This document shows positions 2,813 through 25,482 of a stretch of 25,482 bases of DNA, piece after piece. Made by a program: the position numbers and the translations under genes. The DNA is from a virus. Numbering within the stretch: the first letter of the stretch is position 1; each line of letters opens with the position of its first letter. Location: the IMG/VR virus record IMGVR_UViG_3300035698_002258, positions 1-25,482 of that record; one strand, given 5' to 3'. Below the pieces are notes generated by a model. The model worked only from the letters and a program-made list of their open reading frames with translations, did not search any database and was not told the DNA's origin.

Positions 2813-3861
2813 TGGCGAAGAAACCAGAAATTGATGATGTTGAAATGGAAGATGTTGTTGAACCAGTAAAAGAAGAAATCACCACTGAAGAAATCATGGA
2901 AGCTATGGATGCAGCAAGTCCTGCTCCTGAGATTGCAGAAGATGATGATACGCCGCCAGAACTGGAACTGGATGGTGGTGAACCTGAGCCTGAGGCCGAA
3001 ACGGAGGATGAACCTAAACCTGAACCTGAGGCCGAAACGGAAAAAAAGCCATCTGACGAATTTGGCAAGATCGACAAGGACGCGCCTGAGAAAACCAGAG
3101 AGCGTTTCGAAACCGTAAAGACGAGATACGATGAATTAGCTAAAGAGCGTGACACCCTGATAACTGATCGGGACAAAATTATTGCTGATACGAATCAGTG
3201 GCGCGATGCAATTCAGTCAACGGGGACAAATCCCGCACAGTTTGAAATGGCGATGAACTGGCTGACCAAGTTAAATGCCGGCGATACGTCCAACTTGCAG
3301 GAAGCCTACAATATTATGTCCAACGAGCTTGAGGCTGTTGGTAAGCTGTTGGGCAAGTCTGCAGGCGGTAAATACAATCCACTGGATGATTACCCTGATC
3401 TGAAGGAACGAGTGGATTCCGGCCTTCTGGATGAACCAGACGCAATGGAATTGGTTGCTTCCAGGGCATCTCAAAAGCTGAATGAATCACGGCAGCAAAA
3501 AGACAATGATTCGGCGCGATTCAAAGGCAGCGTAGATAAAGCACTGGCCGATGTGAAAGCGTATGGCGAGAGTATGCAGGCAAAAGATCCATCGTTTAAG
3601 GCGAAAATGCCGTTTTTGATTCCAATCATTCAGTCCATATCAAAGGCTGCACCGAACAATCCTGAAGCATGGATGGAGTCAGTAAAAGCAGCTTATGAGA
3701 ACATGCCAGATTTTCCAACTGTTGCTCCGGTACAACAAATTAAACCCATAGTGCCGAACTCGATACGACTAACGGCTGGTGGATCGCCTGTTTCCAATCA
3801 CGAAAAAGAACCCGGCAGTTTGGAAGAAGCTGTTGATTTAGCCCTTGCGAGAGGGTATTGA
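2812..3861 (+). CDS. Scaffold-like head assembly protein
   Basis: This is a 349-residue protein with a strikingly acidic N-terminal third (residues 1-85), including PEPEAETEDEPKPEPEAETE-type repeats, then a predicted coiled coil (KTRERFETVKTRYDELAKERDTLITDR) and a helical C-terminal half. Acidic, coiled-coil proteins between portal and coat are usually scaffolding proteins, which direct coat assembly and then leave the procapsid. The call is inferred from position and composition; no catalytic motif is present, so a maturation protease fused to scaffold is unlikely. The start overlaps the portal stop (TAATG) and has GGAG at 2801-2804. Translation ends 45 nt before the strong terminator at 3906. 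The Pro/Glu repeats probably arose by duplication of a GAxCCTGA-type DNA motif around 2980-3040. Confidence 0.72.
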   Translation: MAKKPEIDDVEMEDVVEPVKEEITTEEIMEAMDAASPAPEIAEDDDTPPELELDGGEPEPEAETEDEPKPEPEAETEKKPSDEFGKIDKDAPEKTRERFETVKTRYDELAKERDTLITDRDKIIADTNQWRDAIQSTGTNPAQFEMAMNWLTKLNAGDTSNLQEAYNIMSNELEAVGKLLGKSAGGKYNPLDDYPDLKERVDSGLLDEPDAMELVASRASQKLNESRQQKDNDSARFKGSVDKALADVKAYGESMQAKDPSFKAKMPFLIPIIQSISKAAPNNPEAWMESVKAAYENMPDFPTVAPVQQIKPIVPNSIRLTAGGSPVSNHEKEPGSLEEAVDLALARGY

Positions 3862-3905
3862 GTATGTAATGATGTAAATGCGTTTCATGGTGACTCTCCC
3901 TATTA

Positions 3906-3934
3906 CCCCGCATACTACTTGCGGGGTTTTTTTT
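3906..3934 (+). terminator. Intrinsic terminator after the scaffold-like gene
   Basis: A perfect 7-bp stem, CCCCGCA (3906-3912) with TGCGGGG (3920-3926), encloses a 7-nt loop and is followed directly by eight T residues. This is a textbook rho-independent terminator for plus-strand transcription. It lies in the 200-nt gap between the scaffold-like and capsid genes, so partial termination here would set separate expression levels for the two. Confidence 0.88.
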
Positions 3935-3972
3935 ATTGTTGTATTCTTACCACACACGCTTAATTGCAGTAA

Positions 3973-4061: not shown

Positions 4062-5114
4062 ATGCCTTTTACAGCAGATGCGATTGCCCAGGCCGGTAAA
4101 GCTGCGATAGATTACATCGTTCGCAAGTCGCCTGAAGATTTGTATAACACCGAACGCCCCCTTCTGAAGTGCTTGCAAGAAACCAAGAAACCCTTTCCTG
4201 GTGCCAAGCAGTACATCAACGAAAAACTTCGCCTGACGAATGACGCGAACTTCCAATGGTTCGGGCCTGATGAGCAGGTGGATTACAACCGCAAAGACAC
4301 TTTGGGCGAAGCGAATTTCAAATGGGGTTCTGCCCATGATGGCTTCGCATTGACCGAAGAAGAATTGCTGCAGAACTACATCACGGTTACGGATAATCCA
4401 AACGATGCTCCGACAACCAGTGAAAAGCACCAGTTCATCAATCTCATCAAAGAGAACACCGAAACCCTGATGTTGGGATTCAAGGAGAAGTTCGATTACG
4501 ATCTTCACTTGGACGGTACTCAGGATGCTGATGCGATTCCAGGGCTGGATGCTTTTGTTTCCACCACTCCAGCAACCGGAACTATGGGCGGCATTGACCG
4601 ATCGGTAGCAGCAAACTCCTACTGGAGAAATCAGGTCAGCTTGGATATTTCCATTGCCAACCTGCTGACTCAGATGGAAGTCGTGTGGCGTAAATGCACC
4701 CGTATCGGTGGCAATTCACCCAACAAGATTTTGGCCGGCAGTGTATTCATTGATGCGTACCGCGCAGCAGTGAAGGCTGATCAGACTCAGCAGGTTATGG
4801 TTCCGCAGCAAGGTGGTTACACACTGGATGGCGGCAACACTGGCCTGTTCTTCAAAGGCATCCCGATTATATGGGACATGGTTACTGACGATTTGGAAAC
4901 AAATCTGTCACCTACTCAACAGTGGAATTCTCGCTGTTATTTCCTGAACACCCGGTTCTTCAAACTGCGTCCAGCGCAGGGCCAGGATATGGTTGTTCGT
5001 AAACCCCCAAGAGCGTATGACAGGTACACCCATTATTGGGGTCTGACATGGCGTGGTGCTATGACGATCACCAATCCGGGCGCAATGGGCGTTCTCACAG
5101 CAACTGGTTCATAA
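4062..5114 (+). CDS. Major capsid protein
   Basis: This is a 350-residue protein encoding the likely coat subunit, which assembles the icosahedral head around the scaffold. The assignment rests on the canonical order portal, scaffold, coat and on size. Further support comes from sequence features of HK97-fold phage coats I recognise loosely: a helical N-terminus (DAIAQAGKAAIDYIV), an E-loop-like segment (KQYINEKLRLTNDANFQWF, with a VDYNRKDTLGEANFKWG region) and a central mixed domain that includes ILAGSVFIDAYRAA. The C-terminal part has QWNSRCYFLNTRFFKLRP followed by DRYTHYWGLTWRGAMTITNPGAMGVL, typical of coats that end with 'gl.w.gamt..np'. The ATG is preceded by GAGGA at 7-nt spacing. A terminator and a structured leader precede the gene, consistent with separate, high expression. 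There is no sign of an N-terminal protease-cleaved delta domain. Confidence 0.85.
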   Translation: MPFTADAIAQAGKAAIDYIVRKSPEDLYNTERPLLKCLQETKKPFPGAKQYINEKLRLTNDANFQWFGPDEQVDYNRKDTLGEANFKWGSAHDGFALTEEELLQNYITVTDNPNDAPTTSEKHQFINLIKENTETLMLGFKEKFDYDLHLDGTQDADAIPGLDAFVSTTPATGTMGGIDRSVAANSYWRNQVSLDISIANLLTQMEVVWRKCTRIGGNSPNKILAGSVFIDAYRAAVKADQTQQVMVPQQGGYTLDGGNTGLFFKGIPIIWDMVTDDLETNLSPTQQWNSRCYFLNTRFFKLRPAQGQDMVVRKPPRAYDRYTHYWGLTWRGAMTITNPGAMGVLTATGS

Positions 5115-16135: not shown

Positions 16136-18768
16136 TGGCAACTGAAGCTGAAAAAATGCTGTCTGATTTGAGGTCTAAACATGGCTCTCAAAGCGAAGCT
16201 AGAGCCATGTTGGATGATCTCAGGGCCAAACAGAATCCAGCACCTAAGCAGACTAAGAGCCTGATAGATGCCATTGCCGGCCAAACTACGCAGCCATTTA
16301 ACAAGGGATTAGTCGATACGGCGAGTTTACCTATAGATTTAGCAAATTTTCTTATCTCGCCTTTTACGGATAAAAAAATACCAGGCCCGCAAGAATTGCG
16401 TGACACTACGGCTAATCTAGGGATTACCTCACCGGAAGTTTCTGAGGCCGAAGGGTTTGTTCCGAGGGCTATGGAAATTCTCGGTAGTTCTGTAGCCCCG
16501 GCAGGTGCATTACAGTCCTTTGGACGCGATGTTATCAAACAAGGCATTCCACTTGCCAAGCAAGGCATTGGGCAGGCATTAGCCAGTCAAACCGCAGCTA
16601 GACCGGGGGCTACCTTAGCGGCTGATGTGGCTGGCAGTTTTGGTGCTGCTGGAGGTGGTGAGGTTGCCAAGCAATTTACAGATGATCCGAGCATGGTTTC
16701 TCTCGGAGAACTGGCAGGGGGTATAGGTATACCATCGGCTGTTTCATCTATTCCCAAGGCGGTATCTGCTGTTACTCAAAAATTACCTGTCACCGGCAAT
16801 GTTATCCGCGCAGGGAAAAAAATCATAGAGTCATTCAACACAGAGGCCAGACAGCGTTCACGCCTTCAGGAGTTATCATCTGATCCTGATGCTGCTGCCA
16901 GTAAAATTGACCCAAACTCTCCGGTATCGCCAGCACGACAAACTGAAGATCCGCGTTTGATTGCGTTCGAGGAAGTGGCTCTTAAACAATCACCGGCTAA
17001 ATTTGAACAAGATTTCAGACAAAAGGCAGTCAGGGCTGAAAAAGAGGCTATTGCAGACGCTCAGGCATTTGATGGTGATACTTTCGAGAGCGACCTTGCT
17101 GCACCGGCTGCTTTAATCAGACAGACTTCAAGGGACACGATCAACCGTGTACAAGGTAAGGCCGATAAAGCCCTTCAGGATGCTGATGAGGCAATGTCAG
17201 GCATAGACACAGGGCGCCGTACCCGCGACATAAGCGGTGCTGAACGTGACAGGTTGGATGAAGCGTTACGGGTTGCCCGTTCCGAAGAAAGAGAAGTTTG
17301 GAACATGGTTGCCAGCGATGCGCCTGCAGAATTAAGCTCTACGAGAACTGCATTTGATGATCTGAAGTCTGCTGAAAGTCGAGTGACATTCGACCGGAAT
17401 GTGCCAGATGACATAAAGGCATTACTGGCAGATAAAGATCCATTGACTCTGAAAGATTTGCGCGCCGTTCGTTCTGAGATTGGCGACCAGATGGCCACTA
17501 TGAAAGCCGAAGGTAAGTTCAACCAGGCTCGAATATTCAAAAAATTCTATGACTCGCTGTTGGATGATATGTCAGCGGTTGATGCTGCAGGCATAAAGGA
17601 AGCGCAGAAGTTCTCGCGTGAACTGAATGCGAAATTTACCAAGGGCGAAGTCGGGACCATTTTAGGATCAACCAAAAAGGGCGTTCGTGCGGTAGATTCG
17701 CCAGAAACACTGGATCGGCTGTTTGCACCGAGATCAGTAACCCGTGGCGTTAAGCAGTTTTTGGAAGCATCGCCTGATTCCCGTGCCGGTTTAGAAGAAT
17801 TCCTTCAGAACCGGTTTTCATTTCAGGTGGTCAACGAAAATGGTGTGCTGAATCAGGCCGTAGCCAACAGACTGATAAAGGATCTAAAAAACCGTGGCGT
17901 ATTTGAAGAATTCCCTGACTTAGAGGCCAAACTTACCGGTGCTGTTACTGCATCCAGCAAAGCCAAGAACCTTGCAGAACGTGCGAACATTGTTAAACAG
18001 CGCGGTGGTGTTCGATTGTTCCAAGACAGTAAAAAGTCACTTGCCAGTGTGTTTCTGGATAAAGATGTTGGAAAGGAAACGGCAATTCTGTTGGATAGCA
18101 AACAGCCTGTGATGCTGGCCAAGCGATTGAAAACTGCCATGCGTGGCGATGCCAATGCAGAGGACGGTTTGCGTCGTGGGTTCGCTGAAGTCTTATTGCA
18201 GAAAGCTGAAACGAATCAGTTAAGCCAGTCTGGTGAGGCGGTTGTTTCTGGAGCTAAGTACACTAAACTGATTAGGGATAATGAAGAAACCCTGATCGCG
18301 CTTGGCTTTAATTCCGATCAGATTGCACGACTGAAACGGTCTGCCACGATTTTGCGGCAGTTACAGGCTACGCCTGGCAAATCTCAGGTTACAAAAGTGA
18401 TTGATGATGCCCCCGCCTTCTTTTTGGCAATTCCTGCCAGGGTTCTTGGCGCTAAATTTGGCGGCGAGTTAGGTAAAGGAAGTTCTGGTGGATCTATTCA
18501 AATGGCGGGTATATTCGCTTCACGGTTCCAAAAGGCTTTGGAATTCTTGACTACAGACATGGCAAAGCATGGGTTAATTGACATAGTTGACGATCCCGCC
18601 TTATTTAAAGCGTTTCTTCTGCCCAAAAACGCAACGCAAGGTCAGCAGGAAAAATCAATTAAAGCAATTGAAACATGGATGTACGGCTTGGGTGTTGATT
18701 TTGCGAGCGAGGCAGTGAATGACGATGCTTCTGACCGGCCTGAAGAATCTGGCCGGTCAGATAATTGA
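16135..18768 (+). CDS. Large internal virion / DNA-ejection protein
   Basis: This 877-residue protein is the largest gene in the window and the last of the late operon. It starts with two short related helices (KMLSDLRSKHG and AMLDDLRAKQ), then has a Gly/Ala-rich, amphipathic region (about 120-235, with GGEVAKQFTDD and LGELAGGIGIPSA) that could insert into membranes. Residues about 290-700 are long charged helices (EREVWNMV, LKDLRAVRSEIGDQMATMKAEG). The C-terminal part includes APAFFLAIPARVLGAKFGGELGKG. This organisation fits large podophage ejection proteins that line the channel for DNA entry. I found no lysozyme-type catalytic motif. A strong hairpin lies 44 nt into the gene, and the final codons encode the stem of another. 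Confidence 0.62.
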   Translation: MATEAEKMLSDLRSKHGSQSEARAMLDDLRAKQNPAPKQTKSLIDAIAGQTTQPFNKGLVDTASLPIDLANFLISPFTDKKIPGPQELRDTTANLGITSPEVSEAEGFVPRAMEILGSSVAPAGALQSFGRDVIKQGIPLAKQGIGQALASQTAARPGATLAADVAGSFGAAGGGEVAKQFTDDPSMVSLGELAGGIGIPSAVSSIPKAVSAVTQKLPVTGNVIRAGKKIIESFNTEARQRSRLQELSSDPDAAASKIDPNSPVSPARQTEDPRLIAFEEVALKQSPAKFEQDFRQKAVRAEKEAIADAQAFDGDTFESDLAAPAALIRQTSRDTINRVQGKADKALQDADEAMSGIDTGRRTRDISGAERDRLDEALRVARSEEREVWNMVASDAPAELSSTRTAFDDLKSAESRVTFDRNVPDDIKALLADKDPLTLKDLRAVRSEIGDQMATMKAEGKFNQARIFKKFYDSLLDDMSAVDAAGIKEAQKFSRELNAKFTKGEVGTILGSTKKGVRAVDSPETLDRLFAPRSVTRGVKQFLEASPDSRAGLEEFLQNRFSFQVVNENGVLNQAVANRLIKDLKNRGVFEEFPDLEAKLTGAVTASSKAKNLAERANIVKQRGGVRLFQDSKKSLASVFLDKDVGKETAILLDSKQPVMLAKRLKTAMRGDANAEDGLRRGFAEVLLQKAETNQLSQSGEAVVSGAKYTKLIRDNEETLIALGFNSDQIARLKRSATILRQLQATPGKSQVTKVIDDAPAFFLAIPARVLGAKFGGELGKGSSGGSIQMAGIFASRFQKALEFLTTDMAKHGLIDIVDDPALFKAFLLPKNATQGQQEKSIKAIETWMYGLGVDFASEAVNDDASDRPEESGRSDN
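16178..16211 (+). other. Perfect 11-bp inverted repeat inside the large ejection gene
   Basis: AACATGGCTCT (16178-16188) is followed 12 nt later by its exact complement AGAGCCATGTT (16201-16211). Within the 12-nt loop, AGC (16192-16194) and GCT (16198-16200) can pair around GAA, extending the stem. The hairpin begins 44 nt after the start codon. It overlaps codons of the first small helix repeat. No T tract follows. Confidence 0.7.
18731..18760. terminator. Hairpin between converging operons (terminator-like, no T tract)
   Basis: CTGACCGGCC (18731-18740) pairs perfectly with GGCCGGTCAG (18751-18760) around a 10-nt loop. It lies inside the last codons of the plus-strand ejection gene, just 11 nt before the end of the minus-strand recT gene. 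The symmetry would allow it to act on transcripts from both sides. There is no T run on either strand, so efficient intrinsic termination is uncertain. Confidence 0.55.
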
Positions 18769-18771
18769 CGG

Positions 18772-19599
18772 TTAAAAATCTAGCGGGTCACTATTCGGTT
18801 CAGGCTCACCCGTATCCAGTTCGCCTTCAATGACTTCAGGTTCAGGATCATGAGTATCAATGCCTGCTCTCATGGCTTCCTGAACTTCACGCGCCTTACT
18901 GGAAACTTGAGGCTCACTGGTGAACTGGTCGTTGTCACGGTCAATCAGGTCCAGCAGCGTATCGTCCTGAATGGGCAGTGACTTCCGCAAACGCTTGGCC
19001 ACGGTCTTTCGGTACATTTCAGATGCCCAGGTTGTCCAGATAGCACCGTCTTTCTGCTTGCTGGAATTACGCACCTTGTCCAGTTCACCAATGTCCATGT
19101 ACTCGCGGTATTTCTCGCCAGTGGCATGTTCAGTGGCAATGGCATAGGCACCAATGATCTTGCCACGATCACCACTAAGGAAAGGCTCATGCAGTATCGA
19201 AGGCGAATCGCCCAGGACGTAATTGAACGTGTCTTTTTCATAGCGTATTTCGGCGCGAATATCCCATCCGGCCTGTGTCATTTTCTTGCGAATGCCAAGA
19301 ATCATGGGTTGCCATTGGACTTTTTTAATCCATTTATCGCCTGATTTGGTGTTGTAAATAACCAGAGCACCTTCGCGGCTGTCAGGCATTAACCCATCCT
19401 GTGCCGCCCTTTGGCAAGCAATGAACAGGGTTTTACGATCAGCATCCAGCAGGTCAGGGTTTTCCTGCACTGCCCGAATGGTTACAGCAGTGAATTTAGC
19501 CAGCGCCTTTGCCGGCATAAACTCCTTGAGGTTATCTTGCACACCAGCAGATGCTATTTGCTGTTTGAAACTGTCGATTGTGGCGAGATTGGTGCTCAT
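18772..19599 (-). CDS. recT: RecT-family single-strand annealing protein
   Basis: This 275-residue protein is recognisable as RecT. It has FMPAKALAKFTAVTIRAVQENPDLLDADRKTLFIACQRAAQDGLMPD, then EGALVIYNTKSGD, KKVQWQPMILGIRKKMTQAGWDIRAEIRYEKD, and a C-terminal WTTWASEMYRKTVAKRLRKSLP segment. RecT binds single-stranded DNA and anneals complementary strands in phage recombination, together with the exonuclease encoded immediately upstream. The gap to that gene is only 2 nt, and an AAGGAG (19616-19611) lies in the exonuclease end. The C-terminal 50 residues are acidic and disordered, ending NSDPLDF, which resembles the acidic-hydrophobic tip of SSB proteins and is also found at the end of the protein at 5457. 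Confidence 0.93.
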   Translation of the reverse strand: MSTNLATIDSFKQQIASAGVQDNLKEFMPAKALAKFTAVTIRAVQENPDLLDADRKTLFIACQRAAQDGLMPDSREGALVIYNTKSGDKWIKKVQWQPMILGIRKKMTQAGWDIRAEIRYEKDTFNYVLGDSPSILHEPFLSGDRGKIIGAYAIATEHATGEKYREYMDIGELDKVRNSSKQKDGAIWTTWASEMYRKTVAKRLRKSLPIQDDTLLDLIDRDNDQFTSEPQVSSKAREVQEAMRAGIDTHDPEPEVIEGELDTGEPEPNSDPLDF

Positions 19600-19601
19600 A
19601 A

Positions 19602-20453
19602 TTATGGTGACTCCTTTGGATATGGATAATCGAGAATTTGAATGTCAGTGCTGTATGATGGCCACTGATCGGTTTTAACACATTCGGCATAGAGATTCAG
19701 CCCCTCTCTGTATTCCTCTCTGCCGCGTTCAATTGCCCAAGGCGGTACTTCGTATATCTGAATACCGTAAGGCTCGTCACGCTCCAAGGCAATCATCAGG
19801 TACAGGTCTGGCTTGCCGATTGACCAGTCCATTACATCGGTGTAAAACGCAGCTCCCTGGAAGTAGCCGTATTTATAGGCTGTTCGCTGAAATGGGTACT
19901 TTCTGGCATCTTCGCAGGACTTCACTTCGAGGATGATTTTATTGTCGAGTATCTTGGTGAGATAATCTGGCTTGCACTTGCACAACACGCCGGTAACAGG
20001 GTCGTTTGCTATGACTACCTGTTCAGCCTTGCCGGTGTTAAAAAACTGAGAAAGCTCTGGATGATGACGCACCGAATTGCCGATTCTTTGAAATTCAGCC
20101 GATTGCTCATTGGTGATAATCAGCTTGCCTTCATTCATGGCATCCCACTGTGTCCAGTAGCGAATGGACATTTCAGCCTTTTCGGTTGGTCTGCCTTCTT
20201 CATATGCCTTAATCTGAGGCGCTGTGGGCTTGCGTGGCGCATCTTCTGGGATGACTGCATGGGTGCTCAGGAATTTCTCAGGTTCAAGTATGGCGCAGTG
20301 TATGGACGTTCCTGCCAGAATCGCTGCTGTAGGTGGCCTGTTAGCTGCTTTCAGGTGTGCTGGCGAACGTGATATGGCTTTGAGTTTTGAATTGCTTGCT
20401 GCCTCAATAGCGAAATAATCAGCATCGGGCATGTTGTAGATTCCGGGTTTCAT
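19602..20453 (-). CDS. RecE-like PD-(D/E)XK exonuclease
   Basis: This 283-residue protein resembles the C-terminal nuclease domain of RecE/exonuclease VIII and related phage exonucleases. It opens with MKPGIYNMPDADYFAIEA...SNSKLKAISRSPAHL and contains GTSIHCAILEPEKF with H52. The nuclease core reads CKCKPDYL (D163), then IILEVKSCEDAR (E176, K178), followed by a YKYGYFQGAAFY motif (Q199/Y204 region) typical of this group. Such enzymes digest one strand of a duplex and leave 3' tails for RecT. The start overlaps the stop of the small upstream gene (ATGA) and has only a weak ribosome site. E. coli RecE carries a large extra N-terminal domain that is absent here; most phage versions also lack it. 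Confidence 0.88.
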   Translation of the reverse strand: MKPGIYNMPDADYFAIEAASNSKLKAISRSPAHLKAANRPPTAAILAGTSIHCAILEPEKFLSTHAVIPEDAPRKPTAPQIKAYEEGRPTEKAEMSIRYWTQWDAMNEGKLIITNEQSAEFQRIGNSVRHHPELSQFFNTGKAEQVVIANDPVTGVLCKCKPDYLTKILDNKIILEVKSCEDARKYPFQRTAYKYGYFQGAAFYTDVMDWSIGKPDLYLMIALERDEPYGIQIYEVPPWAIERGREEYREGLNLYAECVKTDQWPSYSTDIQILDYPYPKESP

Positions 20454-20701
20454 GTTACGTCTACCATGTGTATTTTCAGCCAGTCGCTACCGTTACCGCT
20501 AAGCCTTTCTATTACAAATCTTCTTTCGTCTGAATTTGGCAACTGAACGGTTACTGATATCTCTCTATTATCAAACCTTTCTCGCAGTGCGCCAATAATT
20601 AGGCCGTGGTGGAATTGCTGAAGTGTTCTAGAATTGCTCAATAGAATTGCCGCTTGCTTAGAATTCAAAGCATCGTAGTATTCATCTTTTTCTGTTGGCA
20701 T
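20450..20701 (-). CDS. Small unknown protein, first gene of the recombination operon
   Basis: This 83-residue protein starts MPTEKDEYYDALNSKQAAIL and ends DWLKIHMVDVT. It has an N-terminal helical half and a beta-like C-terminal half (ISVTVQLPNSDERRFVIERL). I do not recognise a family. It is preceded by AGGAG (20713-20709) with good spacing and directly follows the divergent promoter region. Its stop overlaps the exonuclease start (ATGA), so the three genes form one translationally coupled operon. A helper of the exonuclease/annealase pair, such as a nuclease modulator, is possible but has no direct support. Confidence 0.6.
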   Translation of the reverse strand: MPTEKDEYYDALNSKQAAILLSNSRTLQQFHHGLIIGALRERFDNREISVTVQLPNSDERRFVIERLSGNGSDWLKIHMVDVT

Positions 20702-20722
20702 TATTTTCTCCTGTGGGCGAAC

Positions 20723-20751
20723 AGTGTAAGCCCACTTGTCAACGTATGCAA
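20723..20751 (-). promoter_or_regulatory. Putative promoter of the minus-strand recombination operon
   Basis: On the minus strand TTGCAT (20751-20746) and TACACT (20728-20723) are separated by exactly 17 bp, a sigma70-like arrangement with weak hexamers. Transcription would start near 20717, just upstream of the AGGAG site. The initial transcript region carries the inverted repeat GTGGGC/GCCCAC (20713-20718 with 20730-20735), which overlaps the -10 element and could be an operator. Confidence 0.5.
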
Positions 20752-20764
20752 TAGGACGTACACT
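20736..20764 (+). promoter_or_regulatory. Putative promoter of the plus-strand early operon
   Basis: TTGTCA (20736-20741) and TACACT (20759-20764) are separated by exactly 17 bp. The hexamers match sigma70 consensus in five and four positions. It overlaps the minus-strand promoter, and the -10 hexamers of both are identical. The transcript would begin near 20771 and reach the Cro-like gene at 20796. Confidence 0.55.
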
Positions 20765-20795
20765 CTACGCTGCAGCTTTCTCATAAGGTGATAAC

Positions 20796-20987
20796 GTGAC
20801 TCCAGCAGAAGTGGTAATTGTTGAATTGGGCGTTCGGCCATTGGCCAGGACACTTGAGGTTTCACCATCAACCATCATCCGATGGCGCGAGAGAACGGGT
20901 AACGTACCGTCCAGATATCATGTGACCATCATTGATCTGTCCAAGGGAAGGATTACGGCGAATGATTTGGTGTATGGGCGTAGATGA
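20796..20987 (+). CDS. Cro-like helix-turn-helix regulator
   Basis: This 63-residue protein has a helix-turn-helix-like segment around residues 12-33 (GVRPLARTLEVSPSTIIRW, then RERTGN). The arrangement LARTLEVSPSTIIRWRERTG resembles YdaS/Cro-type regulators, and the protein ends with a short basic GRR. The start is GTG with AAGGTG (20785-20790) 5 nt upstream; no in-frame ATG is available nearby. As the first gene of the plus-strand early operon, opposite the recombination operon, it is positioned like phage Cro proteins and probably regulates the shared promoter region. No partner CI-type repressor is visible within the window. Its stop overlaps the next start (ATGA). Confidence 0.68.
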   Translation: MTPAEVVIVELGVRPLARTLEVSPSTIIRWRERTGNVPSRYHVTIIDLSKGRITANDLVYGRR

Positions 20988-21214
20988 TTACCGACGAACA
21001 AATTATCTACGATGCCCTTCGCAGATACACTCTGCAGCGGCAGACGTTTTATACCTATGTAATCACAGATGGAAATTTGCGTGAGGACGGTGAAGAATTC
21101 ACCAAGGCAGAAATTGCTGATGCCATGCAAGTTGCCAAACAGTGCGACAGGCTAACCCAACAGGCATTGGCTCGGTTGAAAAAAGCTCAGTCGCCTATTG
21201 TCCTGCTGAACTAA
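20984..21214 (+). CDS. Small unknown early protein
   Basis: This 76-residue protein, starting MITDEQIIYDALRRYTLQRQ, is mostly helical with a central short beta-like segment (TFYTYVITDG). Its C-terminus is a Lys/Ala-rich helix (TQQALARLKKAQSP). No family is recognised. The ATG overlaps the Cro-like stop and its own stop shares a base with the helicase ATG (TAATG). It is therefore part of the early operon and probably translated by coupling. A replication or regulatory accessory role is possible but not supported by any motif. Confidence 0.6.
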   Translation: MITDEQIIYDALRRYTLQRQTFYTYVITDGNLREDGEEFTKAEIADAMQVAKQCDRLTQQALARLKKAQSPIVLLN

Positions 21215-22641
21215 TGTCCATTGAACTCTGGCCCTTCCAATCCGAATTAATAGCGGATCTGCGAGATACCATACAGCGTGGCTACAAAGCACCGCTATTG
21301 GTATCTCCTACCGGAAGTGGCAAAACAGTCATGTTTGCCTATCTCACTGGAAAACTATCTGAGGCTGGCAAACGTACCGTTATATTGGCTCACCGTAAGG
21401 AACTGCTGGATCAGATTAGTAGCACACTGCGCGAGTTTCACGTTAGGCATGACGTTATAGAGCCTGGACGCACCTACAATTCATTGCCATTGGCGCATGT
21501 GGCCAGTGTATTCAGCGTTGTTCGCAGATTGAGATATGTCAAGGTTCCAGATTATGTGATTTGTGACGAAGCGCATCACTCAGTCGAAGGCTCCACCTGG
21601 AGCAAAGTAATTGAACACTGGCGCTCAATCAATTCTAAACTATACGTTATTGGCGTAACAGCAACTCCACAAAGGCTTTCAGGTGAGGGGTTGGATTCAA
21701 CATATGACACAATGGTCATGGGGCCAACTGTCGCTGAATTAATCACTGATGGCTATCTCAGCCCATACAAAATGTTCGCGCCACCAAGGGCTGTGGATAT
21801 GTCTGGCGTAAAGCGTAATATGGGTGACTTCTCGAAGGCTCAGGCCGCTGCTGTAATGGATAAACCGTCCATCATGGGTGACGCGCTGAACCATTACCGT
21901 AAGCATTTGAATGGCGCTCCTACGATTGGATTCTGTGTCAGCATTGAACACGCTCACCATACGGCTGAAACGTACAAGTCGAATGGGTTTCAGGCTGCAG
22001 CCATTGATGGCAAACTGAGCAAAAAGGAACGCTCACAAATCACCAAGGATTTCGCAGCCGGCCAATTACATTACATGGCATCGTGCGACTTGGTTTCTGA
22101 AGGTTATGATGTGAAGGGCGCTATTGGGTGCCAGAATCTCAGGCCAACAGATTCACTGGCCATGTGCCTGCAACAGTGGGGGAGGGTGTTACGTTATGTC
22201 CCAGGAAAAACAGCAATCATATTGGATCACGTTGGAAACTCAGCCAGGCATGGCTTACCAGACCAGGATAGAGAGTGGTCATTGCGAGGTAACGCTGCAA
22301 AAGACAAGCGAAAACAAGATCCAGATGATATTGCAATTCGACAATGCCGTATGTGCGGAGCAGTCAATCCACCATCGAGCAGAAAGTGTTCCGAGTGTGG
22401 CGAAGAATTCAAAGTCAAAGCGCGGAAAATCGAAGAAGTAGACGGTAATCTGGAAGAAATACTGGAGCACGAAAAAGCAATTTACATGCAGACTGATGTT
22501 GCCATGAAACGGCATAAGCACCTTGTAGTTATCGGTAAAATGCGCGGCTACCAGAATCCTGAAGGATGGGCTGGGCATGTGCTGAATGCCGTGGTTACTA
22601 AGGATTTGAAGAATAAGATTAAGAGGCGGGTCAATGGATAG
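21214..22641 (+). CDS. SF2 DEAD/DEAH-type helicase with C-terminal zinc ribbon
   Basis: This is a 475-residue, complete SF2 helicase. It has Walker A SPTGSGKTV (31-39), VILAHRKELLDQ (56-67), DEAH (118-121), GVTATPQR (147-154), a motif IV-like IGFCVSIEHAHHT, motif V-like LVSEGYDVKG and motif VI QQWGRVLR (320-327). Residues 378-395 form a CX2C-X10-CX2C ribbon (C378, C381, C392, C395) that could bind zinc and DNA. It probably unwinds DNA during phage replication or recombination using ATP. The ATG at 21214 overlaps the previous stop (TAATG) and lacks a clear ribosome site. An upstream in-frame ATG at 21142 lies within the preceding gene and is less plausible. An unwinding role at the origin is inferred. 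Confidence 0.9.
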   Translation: MSIELWPFQSELIADLRDTIQRGYKAPLLVSPTGSGKTVMFAYLTGKLSEAGKRTVILAHRKELLDQISSTLREFHVRHDVIEPGRTYNSLPLAHVASVFSVVRRLRYVKVPDYVICDEAHHSVEGSTWSKVIEHWRSINSKLYVIGVTATPQRLSGEGLDSTYDTMVMGPTVAELITDGYLSPYKMFAPPRAVDMSGVKRNMGDFSKAQAAAVMDKPSIMGDALNHYRKHLNGAPTIGFCVSIEHAHHTAETYKSNGFQAAAIDGKLSKKERSQITKDFAAGQLHYMASCDLVSEGYDVKGAIGCQNLRPTDSLAMCLQQWGRVLRYVPGKTAIILDHVGNSARHGLPDQDREWSLRGNAAKDKRKQDPDDIAIRQCRMCGAVNPPSSRKCSECGEEFKVKARKIEEVDGNLEEILEHEKAIYMQTDVAMKRHKHLVVIGKMRGYQNPEGWAGHVLNAVVTKDLKNKIKRRVNG

Positions 22642-22849
22642 CTGGAAAATAGAAAACGTCCCTGTGAAGCAGTTCAGTGTAGTCACCGAGCCGAATCCTG
22701 TCACTGGTGAGATAAAAATCATGACGGACGTTATGGGTAAGGTTACTGAGGAAATTATTCAGACGAAATCTGAGCAGATACGTAATGCACTGATTGATAT
22801 GGGGTGGAAACATCCTGAGTGGGTTTGTCCGAATTGCGAGATAGGCTAA
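22634..22849 (+). CDS. Small unknown protein with C-terminal CxxC
   Basis: This 71-residue protein starts MDSWKIENVPVKQFSVVTEP and ends GWKHPEWVCPNCEIG. The CPNC knuckle at the very end would be a half zinc site, which may dimerise or pair with another protein. The ATG overlaps the helicase stop by 8 nt and has a purine-rich AAGAGGCGGG just upstream. The stop shares a base with the next start (TAATG). I do not recognise a family. Its location between helicase and nuclease suggests a DNA-metabolism role, with no direct evidence. Confidence 0.6.
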   Translation: MDSWKIENVPVKQFSVVTEPNPVTGEIKIMTDVMGKVTEEIIQTKSEQIRNALIDMGWKHPEWVCPNCEIG

Positions 22850-23253
22850 TGAAAGAATCCCCCGTAATGAAACGAATCCTGCTGAACTGCTCAAAGGGTT
22901 CATCGCGGTTGTTTCGTATGAATACCGGGACTGGCTGGATCGGAAAATCAACACGATTCACAAGAACCGATCTGATTACAGTAAACCCAGGCGATGTAAT
23001 CATTCGCCAGGCAAGACCATTTAAGGCCGGTATTGAAGGTATGCACGATCTGATTGGCTGGCAGTCCATCACTGTGACTCCTGCAATGGTCGGGCGGCGA
23101 TTTGCTGTGTTCTCCAGCCTTGAGGTGAAGGGTTCAGGAGGCAGGCCGCGTAGAATGCAACTGGTGTGGCGTGACAACGTATTGAAGGCCGGTGGCCTGT
23201 CGGATATTGTTTATTCGGTTGAGGATGCTGAGAGAGTTTTAACAGTCAAATAA
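22849..23253 (+). CDS. VRR-NUC-like nuclease (PD-(D/E)XK fold)
   Basis: This 134-residue protein resembles small phage VRR-NUC proteins. The core contains GIEGMHDLIGW (D67), then AVFSSLEVKGSGGRPRRMQLVWRD (E92, K94, Q104) and KAGGLSDIVYSVEDAERVL. D67, E92 and K94 form the expected D...ExK catalytic set, and Q104 plus the AGG turn match the family pattern. Members are structure-selective nucleases thought to act on branched or flap DNA; a Holliday-junction resolving role is possible but inferred. The N-terminal 40 residues (KRILLNCSKGSSRLFRMNTGTGW, then IGK) are also common in these proteins. The ATG at 22849 overlaps the previous stop (TAATG); a second in-frame ATG at 22867 is possible. Confidence 0.78.
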   Translation: MKESPVMKRILLNCSKGSSRLFRMNTGTGWIGKSTRFTRTDLITVNPGDVIIRQARPFKAGIEGMHDLIGWQSITVTPAMVGRRFAVFSSLEVKGSGGRPRRMQLVWRDNVLKAGGLSDIVYSVEDAERVLTVK

Positions 23254-23261
23254 AAACAGTG

Positions 23262-23290
23262 TTGACAGTGGCGGGTACAACGTTTAGGAT
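23262..23290 (+). promoter_or_regulatory. Strong sigma70-like promoter upstream of the primase region
   Basis: A perfect TTGACA (23262-23267) is separated by 17 bp from TAGGAT (23285-23290), four of six matches to TATAAT. It is the best promoter match in the window. Transcription would begin around 23297, after the VRR-NUC gene, and feed the primase transcript. The inverted repeat TGCTCC/GGAGCA (23291-23296 with 23307-23312) lies right at the predicted start and could be an operator or a 5' stem. Confidence 0.68.
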
Positions 23291-23291
23291 T

Positions 23292-23442
23292 GCTCCATAC
23301 CTGATAGGAGCATAAATTGATGTTTACCCTTAAAATACCCCATTCGCCACCTGCTTCAAGGCAAGCTGATTGCTTCCGCGTTCCTCTGCGCGGAACAGGT
23401 ATCCGTAGGCCGTGCTGCGGTAAATCAGCACACGGACTTTTT
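23292..23442 (+). ncRNA. Candidate structured leader RNA or small RNA upstream of the primase
   Basis: Predicted pairings are GCTCC/GGAGC (23292-23296, 23307-23311), then a compact three-way junction. Its outer stem is ACCTG (23349-23353) with CAGGT (23396-23400). It holds one hairpin of GCAA/TTGC (23361-23364, 23370-23373) and one of TTCCGCG/CGCGGAA (23374-23380, 23389-23395). The two inner stems and the outer closing strand abut directly. A terminator-like hairpin follows at 23402-23442. A transcript from the promoter at 23262 to that terminator would be about 145 nt. Phage immunity RNAs such as P4 CI and P1 C4 also lie in structured leaders, but no sequence identity is claimed. An open frame (23320-23544) crosses the same region. 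Confidence 0.42.
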
Positions 23443-23544
23443 ATCTATGCCAGCGCGGGTAGTTGGTATTCATCCCACCTTTGGCGCTTCGTGCGTATCA
23501 TGGCCGCCTGTTCGACTCAGGGCGCTGGCACTCTTTTATCATGA
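23320..23544 (+). CDS. Possible 74-residue leader protein overlapping the primase start
   Basis: The frame begins at ATG 23320 with GGAG (23307-23310) 9 nt upstream and ends at a TGA that overlaps the primase ATG (ATGA). The peptide starts MFTLKIPHSPPASRQ, is Arg/Ser/Cys-rich (RRPCCGKSAHG) and ends with SWYSSHLWRFVRIMAACSTQ, then GAGTLLS. The primase itself has no ribosome site, which favours coupled translation through this frame. However, the DNA is more GC-rich than its neighbours and is dominated by RNA hairpins, so this may be a non-coding leader with a chance frame. Alternatively, its translation may control the terminator-like hairpin it crosses. I cannot assign a family. Confidence 0.4.
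   Translation: MFTLKIPHSPPASRQADCFRVPLRGTGIRRPCCGKSAHGLFIYASAGSWYSSHLWRFVRIMAACSTQGAGTLLS
23402..23442 (+). terminator. Terminator- or attenuator-like hairpin upstream of the primase
   Basis: TCCGT (23402-23406) and GTGCTG (23412-23417) pair in order with CAGCAC (23426-23431) and ACGGA (23432-23436), leaving a 5-nt bulge on the left and an 8-nt loop. Five T residues follow at 23438-23442. The T run is short, so partial termination (attenuation) of transcripts entering the primase gene is more likely than a full stop. Confidence 0.5.
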
Positions 23545-24410
23545 CAATTGATTTCGACAGGGTTAAACACGACTCTGACCTTTCCGAAGTAGTTGGCCGT
23601 TATTGCAATCTGCAGCAGCGCGGCGGTAAGTGGTGGGCGATCTGCCCATTTCACGAAGATTCAAAGCCAACAAATTTCAATATCTATCGCGGCAAAGATG
23701 GTGCTGATAGGTATCGCTGCTTTGCCTGCGGTGAAGGTGGTGATGTTGTTGATTTTCTCTGTAAGATCGAAAACATCACGCCAGCAGAGGCGGTCAAACG
23801 ATTGGATACAGGCACACTGCCGCCAGTCGGAACCTATGAAAGAAAACAGTTGCCACCTTCGCAAACGCATGAGTGGAATCCCATTGTCCCGGTGCCTGAA
23901 AATGCGACGAAGTATGAGCCATCCCAGACAATGAATCCGAATCATGGGCGCATAGTCGATTATCGCTGGATGATGGAGCGCATAGACGCATACCGGAATG
24001 ATGCCGGCAAGTTGATGTTCTATGTAATTCGGTGCAAATTCCCGGATGGTCAGAAAATGACACCTGTTATCTCATGGTGCCGTGGTCCAAACGGTCAGGA
24101 ATTGTGGGCCGCGAAACGTCCTGATTCGCCTTTTCCGTTGTTGGGACTGGATGAATTGAAATCCAGGCCAGAAGCAAAAGTTATTCTGGTTTCAGGCGAA
24201 AAATGTAAGGCGGCACTGGCGGATATATTTCCCGAAGTGGTAGTGGTCACATGGCTAGGCGGCGACGAGGCCATAAAAGACACCGATTGGTCGCCATTAA
24301 AAAACGCACCGGCTGTTTTACAGTGGCCGGACGCTGATTTCCCTGGGAGTAATGCAATGAATAAAATTGCAAAGATGGTCAATGAAATCGAAAAGTCTGG
24401 AACGGGTTAG
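23541..24410 (+). CDS. DnaG-type primase (CHC2 zinc finger plus TOPRIM)
   Basis: This 289-residue protein has an N-terminal CHC2-type zinc finger: CPFH (C35, H38) and CFAC (C60, C63), with the intervening EDSKPTNFNIYRGKDGADRYR. The C-terminal half has a TOPRIM-like domain: VILVSGEKCKAAL with E220, and QWPDADFPG with D264 and D266. It would synthesise RNA primers for phage DNA replication. I chose ATG 23541, which overlaps the stop of the 74-codon frame; the in-frame upstream extension to 23463 lacks conserved residues. The protein ends soon after the TOPRIM, so the ring helicase domain found in many phage primase-helicases is missing here. The next gene may supply a detached C-terminal domain. 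Confidence 0.87.
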   Translation: MTIDFDRVKHDSDLSEVVGRYCNLQQRGGKWWAICPFHEDSKPTNFNIYRGKDGADRYRCFACGEGGDVVDFLCKIENITPAEAVKRLDTGTLPPVGTYERKQLPPSQTHEWNPIVPVPENATKYEPSQTMNPNHGRIVDYRWMMERIDAYRNDAGKLMFYVIRCKFPDGQKMTPVISWCRGPNGQELWAAKRPDSPFPLLGLDELKSRPEAKVILVSGEKCKAALADIFPEVVVVTWLGGDEAIKDTDWSPLKNAPAVLQWPDADFPGSNAMNKIAKMVNEIEKSGTG

Positions 24411-24419
24411 GAGATAACT

Positions 24420-24878
24420 ATGTACGACAACACAAAACTGAATGCGGCATTTTCTGCATGGCTGAAAAAGAATGTTCGGGCAGGATACGGCGAACAGTAT
24501 GCCGGGGATCTGCTGGATGATTTCGATGAGTTCTTGCGCCAGACTCAGATGATGAAGCGCAATCCAGGCAGGGTGGCATTCGGCAAACTGCTGAAAGCCG
24601 ATGGTCGATTTGAAACTCGCAAGAAATTGGGCCTTACTCATTGGTTCGGACTGGAATTAATTAACAAGCCAGCAGCCGATGCACTTGCGCCTAAACGGTA
24701 CAGCCGTGTAAAAAAGTATGAGATAGAAAAGGGCAAAGAGGTTGACGCAATACAAGATGAAGCAGATTTTCAATCATCCGAAGATGCTGAAGCAGCGCGA
24801 TTGGCAGCATTCAAGACTGAATTGGATACTGAAACCGCTGATTCAGTGCGTAAGGTAGGCCGTGATGAATCGGAATAA
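24420..24878 (+). CDS. Possible winged-helix DNA-binding protein, partner of the primase
   Basis: This 152-residue protein starts MYDNTKLNAAFSAWLKKNVR. The segment DDFDEFLRQTQMMKRNPGRVAFGKLLKADGRFETRKKLGLTHWFGLEL has the spacing and residues I associate with the C-terminal winged-helix domain of phage and plasmid primase-helicases (D5/P4-alpha type). In that family the pattern is 'F...L...g....rr...g...w.Gl.l'. The C-terminal 45 residues are acidic and likely disordered. A strong TTAGGAG (24407-24413) precedes the ATG by 6 nt. It follows a primase that lacks a helicase domain, so it may be that enzyme's detached DNA-binding module. The match is by pattern only; an unrelated small replication protein is possible. 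Confidence 0.5.
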   Translation: MYDNTKLNAAFSAWLKKNVRAGYGEQYAGDLLDDFDEFLRQTQMMKRNPGRVAFGKLLKADGRFETRKKLGLTHWFGLELINKPAADALAPKRYSRVKKYEIEKGKEVDAIQDEADFQSSEDAEAARLAAFKTELDTETADSVRKVGRDESE

Positions 24879-25035
24879 ATGGGTTATGGCGCTGGTGCTT
24901 GTTACCGGAATATACAGCCATGAAATTCTGGATGGGCGCAATCGCATTTGTTTTTATGAATCTGTTTATGGCACACACGCAATGAATTTAGATGCTGTTT
25001 TGAATTGTCCGATTACGTGGGAGTTTGAAATATGA
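24865..25035 (+). CDS. Small secreted or membrane phage protein with C..Y...CP pattern
   Basis: This 56-residue frame starts at ATG 24865, inside the end of the previous gene. The N-terminus is signal-like: basic MNRNKW, then hydrophobic VMALVLVTGIYS. The mature part would be GRNRICFYESVYGTHA, then LNCPITWEF. The two cysteines with an intervening Tyr-rich stretch and a CP pair match a family of short, exported phage proteins of unknown function that I recall only loosely. The stop overlaps the next start (ATGA), and the overlap at its own start is 14 nt, both consistent with the compact operon. The disulfide and export are inferred from the pattern. Confidence 0.6.
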   Translation: MNRNKWVMALVLVTGIYSHEILDGRNRICFYESVYGTHAMNLDAVLNCPITWEFEI

Positions 25036-25307
25036 AAGTCCTGATAAATTACACCGTAGACGTAGATCCGATGGCGTGGGCGAACAGCCATGGAATTGAT
25101 GTTAGTCAGACCGACAGAACATTCGCCTTTGCAATTCGGGAAAGTGTCAAACGCTCTTTGGAAACTCGCGGAACGGATTATGTAAATGGCGTATGGCCAG
25201 CCGGTATTCCGAAATTCACAGATCCAGGAGTAGATGCGGATAGCCACAACAAATGGAAAAAAGAGAATCGCATTGGGCATGAAAAATACGACCGTAACAT
25301 TTATTAA
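25032..25307 (+). CDS. Small phage protein of unknown function
   Basis: This 91-residue protein starts MKVLINYTVDVDPMAWANSHG. The first 20 residues (V.i.YtVDVD..AWA...GID) resemble a short, widespread phage protein type that I cannot name. The C-terminal half is charged (HNKWKKENRIGHEKYDRNIY). GGGAG at 25019-25023 lies 8 nt before the ATG, and the start overlaps the previous stop (ATGA). No enzymatic motif is visible. A short, gene-free gap (25308-25365) follows in which I see only the next ribosome site and no clear promoter. Confidence 0.6.
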   Translation: MKVLINYTVDVDPMAWANSHGIDVSQTDRTFAFAIRESVKRSLETRGTDYVNGVWPAGIPKFTDPGVDADSHNKWKKENRIGHEKYDRNIY

Positions 25308-25365
25308 CCAGGACCAAACGATTAATCATTCGTGCCAACAAACCTAGCACCTACGGGAGAACGAA

Positions 25366-25482
25366 ATGAAAAAATCTCTGAAACTGAATGCAAAAGAGGC
25401 CACCTTTTATTTTTTAAACGGCGAAAAGAAATTTGGGTTACATGATGGCCTGCGCGGTGATGTCACTGGCCTGCGCGGTGAT
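25366..25482 (+). CDS. Start of a GLRGDVT-repeat protein (3' truncated by window edge)
   Basis: Thirty-nine codons are visible: MKKSLKLNAKEATFYF, then KKFGLHDGLRGDVTGLRGD at the edge. GGGAGA (25355-25360) precedes the ATG by 5 nt. The repeat unit is seven residues (GLRGDVT) encoded by 21 nt. Such heptad repeats, of the 'GxRGxVT' type, occur in phage and bacterial proteins and are expected to form a repetitive beta structure; their function is not established. The length of the array cannot be judged here. Confidence 0.68.
   Translation, partial: MKKSLKLNAKEATFYFLNGEKKFGLHDGLRGDVTGLRGD
25447..25482 (+). repeat. 21-nt tandem repeat at the window edge
   Basis: GGCCTGCGCGGTGAT (25447-25461), GTCACT, then the identical 15 nt again (25468-25482). 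The two visible copies are perfect at DNA level, which indicates recent duplication, and the array continues past the window. Confidence 0.75.

Follow-up and report, generated by a model that had tools for sequence, protein, structure and literature searches.

A structured leader in front of a phage primase gene: possible attenuation coupled to a small open reading frame, and an antisense RNA at the same place in other phages

In a 25,482-base virus record from IMG/VR (the window, i.e. the whole stretch of DNA that was analysed) the space between a VRR_NUC-type gene and the primase gene contains what we read, tentatively and with somewhat less than even confidence, as a cis-acting primase leader which uses translation-coupled attenuation and works in a manner similar to icd-ant of P1 without being a member of that system. 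If this attenuator is real, transcription termination that is coupled to translating a very small frame gates the primase; the logic would be P1-like, but built from unrelated parts. The comparison with other phages yielded a by-product which is better supported than the attenuator of the window itself, namely a covarying antisense RNA which precedes the primases in phages of Pseudomonas and Aeromonas.

The replication module (Table 1) begins with a DEAD-box helicase gene, and the VRR_NUC-like gene is separated from the primase by 288 nt. The order helicase - VRR_NUC - primase is common to the Pseudomonas phages Jeremy, Dolphis and Touem01 and the Aeromonas phage ST4; in Bordetella phages the helicase is followed by two small genes and then the primase, nearly without gaps. 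The primase start at 23541 agrees with the homologues of the Bordetella phages, and a different start was dismissed, because the homologues align with the N-terminus from M1. A YdaS/Cro-like HTH gene adjoining opposite-strand genes (20796-20987; PF15943, E=9e-6, just under the cut-off) is a candidate control region of the module.

Table 1. Features of the primase leader and its surroundings in the window, and loci of the RNA found in front of primases in other phages (L numbers; positions within the respective locus).
Feature	Position	Strand	Basis or remark
DEAD-box helicase	21142-22641		first gene of the replication module
VRR_NUC-type gene	22819-23253	+	5' of leader, syntenic marker; PF08774 E=0.012; PHROG_93 endonuclease 1.9e-8
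Promoter TTGACA-17-TAGGAT	23262-23290	+	sigma-70 type; consensus scan, 10/12 matches
Inverted repeat TGCTCC-N10-GGAGCA	23291-23312	+	perfect, across predicted start; single exact copy in window
Helix P1, 5' strand AUACCUG	23297-23303	+	partner 23396-23402; pairing probability 0.57-0.99, transcript from 23297
Shine-Dalgarno AGGAG of ORF74	23306-23310	+	sequence; 9 nt 5' of ATG
ORF74, 74-codon leader ORF	23320-23544	+	TGA overlaps primase ATG 23541 (ATGA)
Anti-Shine-Dalgarno strand UGCUUC	23352-23357	+	predicted fold; helix P2 with GGAGCA 23307-23312
GCUGAUU	23365-23371	+	partner AAUCAGC 23423-23429; alternative junction, would break terminator hairpin
Strong 8-bp hairpin, loop UCCUCU	23374-23395	+	pairing probability near 1 at central pairs
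Helix P1, 3' strand CAGGUAU	23396-23402	+	predicted fold; abuts terminator hairpin
Terminator-like bulged hairpin and TTTTT (23438-23442)	23402-23442	+	within ORF74; second of 76 T5+ runs in window
Long-range stem TGCCAGCGC (23448-23456)/GCGCTGGCA (23522-23530)	23448-23530	+	9 bp, perfect; top complementary pair of leader
Primase N-terminal part, CHC2 zinc finger	23541-24410	+	PF01807 1.5e-19; no Shine-Dalgarno
RNA, L004	3362-3432		
RNA, L190	1596-1667		
RNA, L188	1497-1567		
RNA, L189	1496-1568		
RNA, L167	1161-1232		
RNA, L168	11848-11920		
RNA, L021	3354-3426		
RNA, L013	2638-2709		
RNA, L024	3370-3440		
RNA, L199	166-236		
RNA, L204	797-867		
RNA, L213	1919-1991	-	
RNA, L245	9437-9507		

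The promoter, with hexamers at 23262-23267 and 23285-23290 and a 17-nt spacer, follows directly after VRR_NUC and ranks best of seven promoter-like sites in 18700-25482, a number of sites which is not above that in shuffled sequences (7 vs 9.8). As the -10 hexamer ends at 23290, the spacing predicts A23297 as the approximate transcription start. The inverted repeat across this position would form a hairpin of -7.8 kcal/mol (z -2.9). For transcripts from the nearby promoter we dropped it as a hairpin sequestering the ribosome site, because it needs bases 5' of the predicted start and its 5' arm would remain untranscribed. Possibly the repeat forms such a hairpin solely in read-through transcripts, or it is an operator. 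The operator reading does without any regulatory RNA: the region would be promoter and spacer, the repeat the operator of a phage repressor, and the other structure a product of chance. A perfect 6-bp repeat on the -10/+1 region fits this reading, and so does a leader structure which is only mildly unusual. However, the repeat has a single copy in the window, copies with two or three mismatches occur at chance level, and the strong T5 hairpin as well as the missing ribosome site of the primase are left unexplained; we consider this reading rather improbable.

The clean Shine-Dalgarno sequence of ORF74 and its ATGA overlap with the primase argue for its translation. An overlap of this type with the primase start is common in itself, given that unrelated small ORFs show it (ATGA or similar) in L015, L027, L031 and L032. 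The codon score of ORF74 is -0.06 vs 0.13 for the genes of this phage, which is not gene-like and lies between coding and non-coding; a score this extreme occurs in 6% of in-frame and 15% of out-of-frame segments. GC peaks at codon position 2, and two frames rather than one are open across the leader region, the second equally so. Neither Pfam, NCBIfam nor PHROGs contains a family for ORF74 (best: a PHROG at E=0.42), and tblastn in phages and plasmids, a degenerate-pattern scan of IMG/VR and a six-frame search of 369 and 398 genomes gave matches at chance level only. The best match (L313, 8.7e-5) was discounted, as it is antisense to an integrase-like gene and has no primase nearby. The frame could also be an ordinary small phage gene for an unrelated small basic protein, coupled to the primase by the usual ATGA packing, with a real promoter and with hairpins which are incidental or act as a weak partial terminator. 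The good ribosome site, the overlap, the frequency with which unrelated small ORFs (HTH-like in L015) abut or overlap the primase start in relatives and the merely moderate z-scores of the leader are all compatible with an ordinary gene. Its codon score, the GC distribution, the lack of a homologue in the collections searched and the location of the window's second-best T5 hairpin inside the frame are harder to reconcile with it, and we regard this reading as somewhat unlikely.

This T5 hairpin has -12.2 kcal/mol and is surpassed only by the terminator at 3927. Between promoter and gene a GC-rich hairpin is followed by a U run, as in an intrinsic attenuator, although the hairpin is absent from the output of a simple terminator scan. 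The best terminator-like hairpin of the window (3890-3935, -14.0 kcal/mol, eight Ts at 3927) is located between a gene ending at 3861 and a capsid-like gene at 4062. Promoter, small frame over the primase ATG, missing ribosome site of the primase and bulged hairpin with five Ts had been described in the first-pass annotation, and all are present in the sequence.

The same annotation had drawn a three-way junction in front of the hairpin. Its inner stems (23360-23374 and 23374-23395) indeed abut, and the 8-bp hairpin is outstanding: z is -3.7 for 23373-23404, and just 0.5% of the 32-nt windows on the same strand reach -13 kcal/mol or lower, as the 32-nt segment of this hairpin does. The closing stem is weak, because ACCTG/CAGGT (23349-23353/23396-23400), with a pairing probability of about 0.6 in the isolated segment 23340-23445, falls to 0.08 in 23291-23445 and to 0 if the RNA starts at 23297. 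In RNA from 23297 the predicted ensemble is dominated by the 5'-terminal helix P1, whose 3' strand doubles as the 3' strand of the closing stem just mentioned, and by helix P2, which sequesters the Shine-Dalgarno sequence (in the predicted folds 23307-23310 is largely paired, at about 78-99%). The alternative GCUGAUU/AAUCAGC junction is the MFE structure of the isolated segment 23353-23445 (-31.1 vs -27.6 kcal/mol) and makes up about 5% in the leader. Further downstream, the long-range stem encloses the end of ORF74 just 5' of the primase start; z of this domain is -1.1 and not significant. The stability of the leader is modest, with z = -2.0 for 23291-23445, -1.9 for 23297-23442 and -2.9 for 23297-23402 (1/300). 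Moreover, 24% of the equal-length windows of this genome are at least as stable as 23297-23442, closure of the 5' end is found also in 7% of shuffles, and the ensemble is as diverse as that of shuffles, or more so. Taken as a real leader structure, the 5'-closed fold with a hidden Shine-Dalgarno sequence is thus a suggestive prediction.

According to the attenuation model the promoter would start a leader RNA at about 23297. In the folded leader the 5' end would be paired with 23396-23402, the Shine-Dalgarno sequence (23306-23310) would be hidden, and the T5 hairpin would stop transcription short of the primase. A ribosome loading first on the nascent Shine-Dalgarno sequence would translate ORF74 through the terminator hairpin, let the polymerase pass and re-initiate at the primase ATG within the overlap, where the primase has no separate ribosome site. 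In favour of this model are the best promoter-like site of the module, the Shine-Dalgarno sequence together with the ATGA overlap, the rank of the T5 hairpin, the dominance of helices P1 and P2 in RNA from the predicted start (with the z of -2.9 for 23297-23402), the same geometry in P1 and a covarying regulatory RNA in the same slot of relatives. Against it, transcription of the upstream genes may continue into the primase, 24% of genome windows share the stability and 7% of shuffles the 5' closure of the leader, and the closest primase relatives (L031 and the Bordetella phages) lack a leader or show just short gaps. Neither the leader nor the phage as a whole had a DNA relative in the phages, plasmids, IMG/VR and genomes searched, nor did single-protein scans of IMG/VR with the helicase and with the primase reveal one, and therefore the attenuator is without comparative support. 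Attenuation via the small frame, as first proposed, fits the anatomy and is a plausible function of the leader.

The VRR_NUC-primase gap of Jeremy, Dolphis, Touem01, ST4 and several IMG/VR phages contains a conserved three-way-junction RNA. It consists of a GGGC closing stem, an 8-bp hairpin (loop TTAGCTA), GAAAA, a 5-bp hairpin (loop e.g. TTCTGC), GCCC and a T run. Nearly all of the 13 loci listed in Table 1 lie directly 5' of a primase of CHC2 or Toprim type, L245 having no assigned downstream gene. In six sequences 15 double-change cells were counted vs 5.2 in shuffles (0/500); in 14 distinct members there were 39 vs 10.6 (0/500), with slid structures giving at most 6, but as the alignment of the 14 was fitted to the model, the count from six sequences is the cleaner one. 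Loop 2 has two complementary sites, one immediately downstream of the T run and the other at the Shine-Dalgarno sequence of the next gene. Own pairs score 19.2, compared with 15.6 when the pairs are swapped (0/5000 permutations) and 13.3 when the targets are shuffled (0/300). Members with different loops alter both sites, as AUCCUGA with UCAGGAU in L199, ACCUUGCU with AGCAAGGU in L239 and CUCUGACU with AGUCAGAG in L275, the last pair read by eye from the sequence. Judging from these patterns the RNA is clearly real and would act as an antisense RNA at the primase ribosome site, outside the cut-off of any curated family.

The distant members L239 (473-541) and L275 (6178-6251, minus strand) both have 8-bp loop-to-site complementarity; the RNA of L239 precedes a gene with weak Lin1244_N similarity. 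A diverged version in L062 (3280-3462), missed by the covariance model of this RNA (R1), has a longer closing stem (GACGGGGG/CCCCCGTC) and GGTAGCTCC in the loop region, and two CAGCAG sites match the loop CTGCTG.

R1 (GGGCTAG, loop TTAGCT, GAAAA linker, GCCC closing stem and T run) does not match the leader of the window. In the whole window the model scores at most 8.2 bits, and none of the three matches listed covers the inner hairpins. Complementarity to the primase start region, as expected of an antisense loop 2, is not above chance in the window, whose primase has no Shine-Dalgarno sequence. A search with R1 of 369 genomes of one class gave no members, but as the set had no positive control, this result is uninformative. 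Since both Rfam and R1 miss the leader and the primase has no ribosome site to block, the window gives no sign of belonging to this RNA family and appears to lie outside it. The relatives merely raise the prior that the VRR_NUC-primase slot is regulatory. The earlier proposal that a leader RNA controls replication genes gains support from the covarying antisense RNA in this slot, but that RNA is a different one and is missing from the window.

Could the leader nevertheless be a diverged antisense RNA of C4/CI or int-alpA type which pairs with the ribosome site of ORF74, either in trans or in cis, and so provides immunity or copy control? A collinear 7+6 bp match connects segment 23380-23402 with this site (CAGGUAU/AUACCUG and GUUCCU/AGGAGC; p about 0.03-0.06 vs shuffles), the alternative junction with its C4-like layout is the local MFE, and a true antisense RNA occupies the slot in relatives. 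However, the complementarity was spotted post hoc, that to the primase start region is not above chance (p 0.49-0.86), the Rfam C4 and int-alpA models have no match, and the best match of the relatives' model in the window is located inside the primase gene. We regard antisense control here as very doubtful and a C4-like reading of the leader as weak and open. One broader view joins both kinds of RNA: the VRR_NUC-primase space would be a recurrent site of RNA control of phage replication, occupied in many phages by an int-alpA-like antisense RNA whose loop pairs with the primase ribosome site, and here by an unrelated 5'-end-closed leader in which ORF74 chooses between termination and primase synthesis. 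We think this view unlikely as a whole.

Among known families the relatives' RNA is connected with the int-alpA RNA (RF02996). The int-alpA model matches L239 below the cut-off (28.5 bits vs 35.8); with L167 it gives a 15-bit alignment in which CUAG, CGAAAAGCG and CGCCUG are common to both. The relatives' RNA is therefore a sub-threshold relative of int-alpA and not of C4. The window resembles these RNAs in being a phage leader in which a putative three-way junction is followed by a T run, but it is without the CUAG/GAAAAGCG signature, and in the Rfam scan RF02996 had no match in its leader. True int-alpA RNAs are found in 39 of the 369 genomes of the class searched. In the 19 parsable loci (within L314-L337) loop 2 likewise has two complementary sites, one just behind the closing stem and the other at the Shine-Dalgarno sequence of the next ORF (permutation p 0.006; shuffles 0/300). 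This suggests antisense control of the downstream gene as function of int-alpA, for which we found no described mechanism in a literature search that left out most subscription journals. The loop-to-ribosome-site rule thus gives this RNA family a testable function.

C4 and CI RNAs had also been named as kin of the leader, and here the first-pass annotation was not borne out. Nothing in the window reaches the Rfam gathering cut-off, C4 (RF01695) is absent from 23150-23650 at E<=10, and the c4-a1b1 target model (RF03163) has no match in the window. As positive controls, the C4 model found P4 (74.9 bits) and P1 (68.8 bits), and a1b1 targets were found in both as well; C4/CI membership was therefore rejected. 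Taken together, the original observation is partly confirmed and its interpretation partly supported. The isrK model of Rfam overlaps the c4-a1b1 model in P4 and P1 (L177:8615-8705, L310:168-262), so that both families cover partly the same stretch of one leader.

The CI RNA of P4 (RF01695) is similar to the proposed leader in that premature termination before the replication functions, including the alpha primase, is controlled by RNA; unlike the window, P4 matches the C4 model, and it controls a long leader that has a1b1 targets and a separate terminator. More similar is the c4-icd-ant arrangement of P1 immI, with a promoter, a structured leader or control RNA and a small ORF (the 73-codon icd, compared to ORF74) that has its own Shine-Dalgarno sequence and runs by ATGA into the next gene, which in P1 is ant1. 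ORF74 itself was rejected as Icd, Ash or another known protein, as it has no local alignment with P1 Icd and no family match. While in P1 the structure precedes the small ORF and the target is an antirepressor, in the window the structured part is inside the small ORF and the target is the primase. According to the P1 annotation the expression of ant apparently depends on icd, and ORF74 would likewise be mainly a coupling device for the primase.
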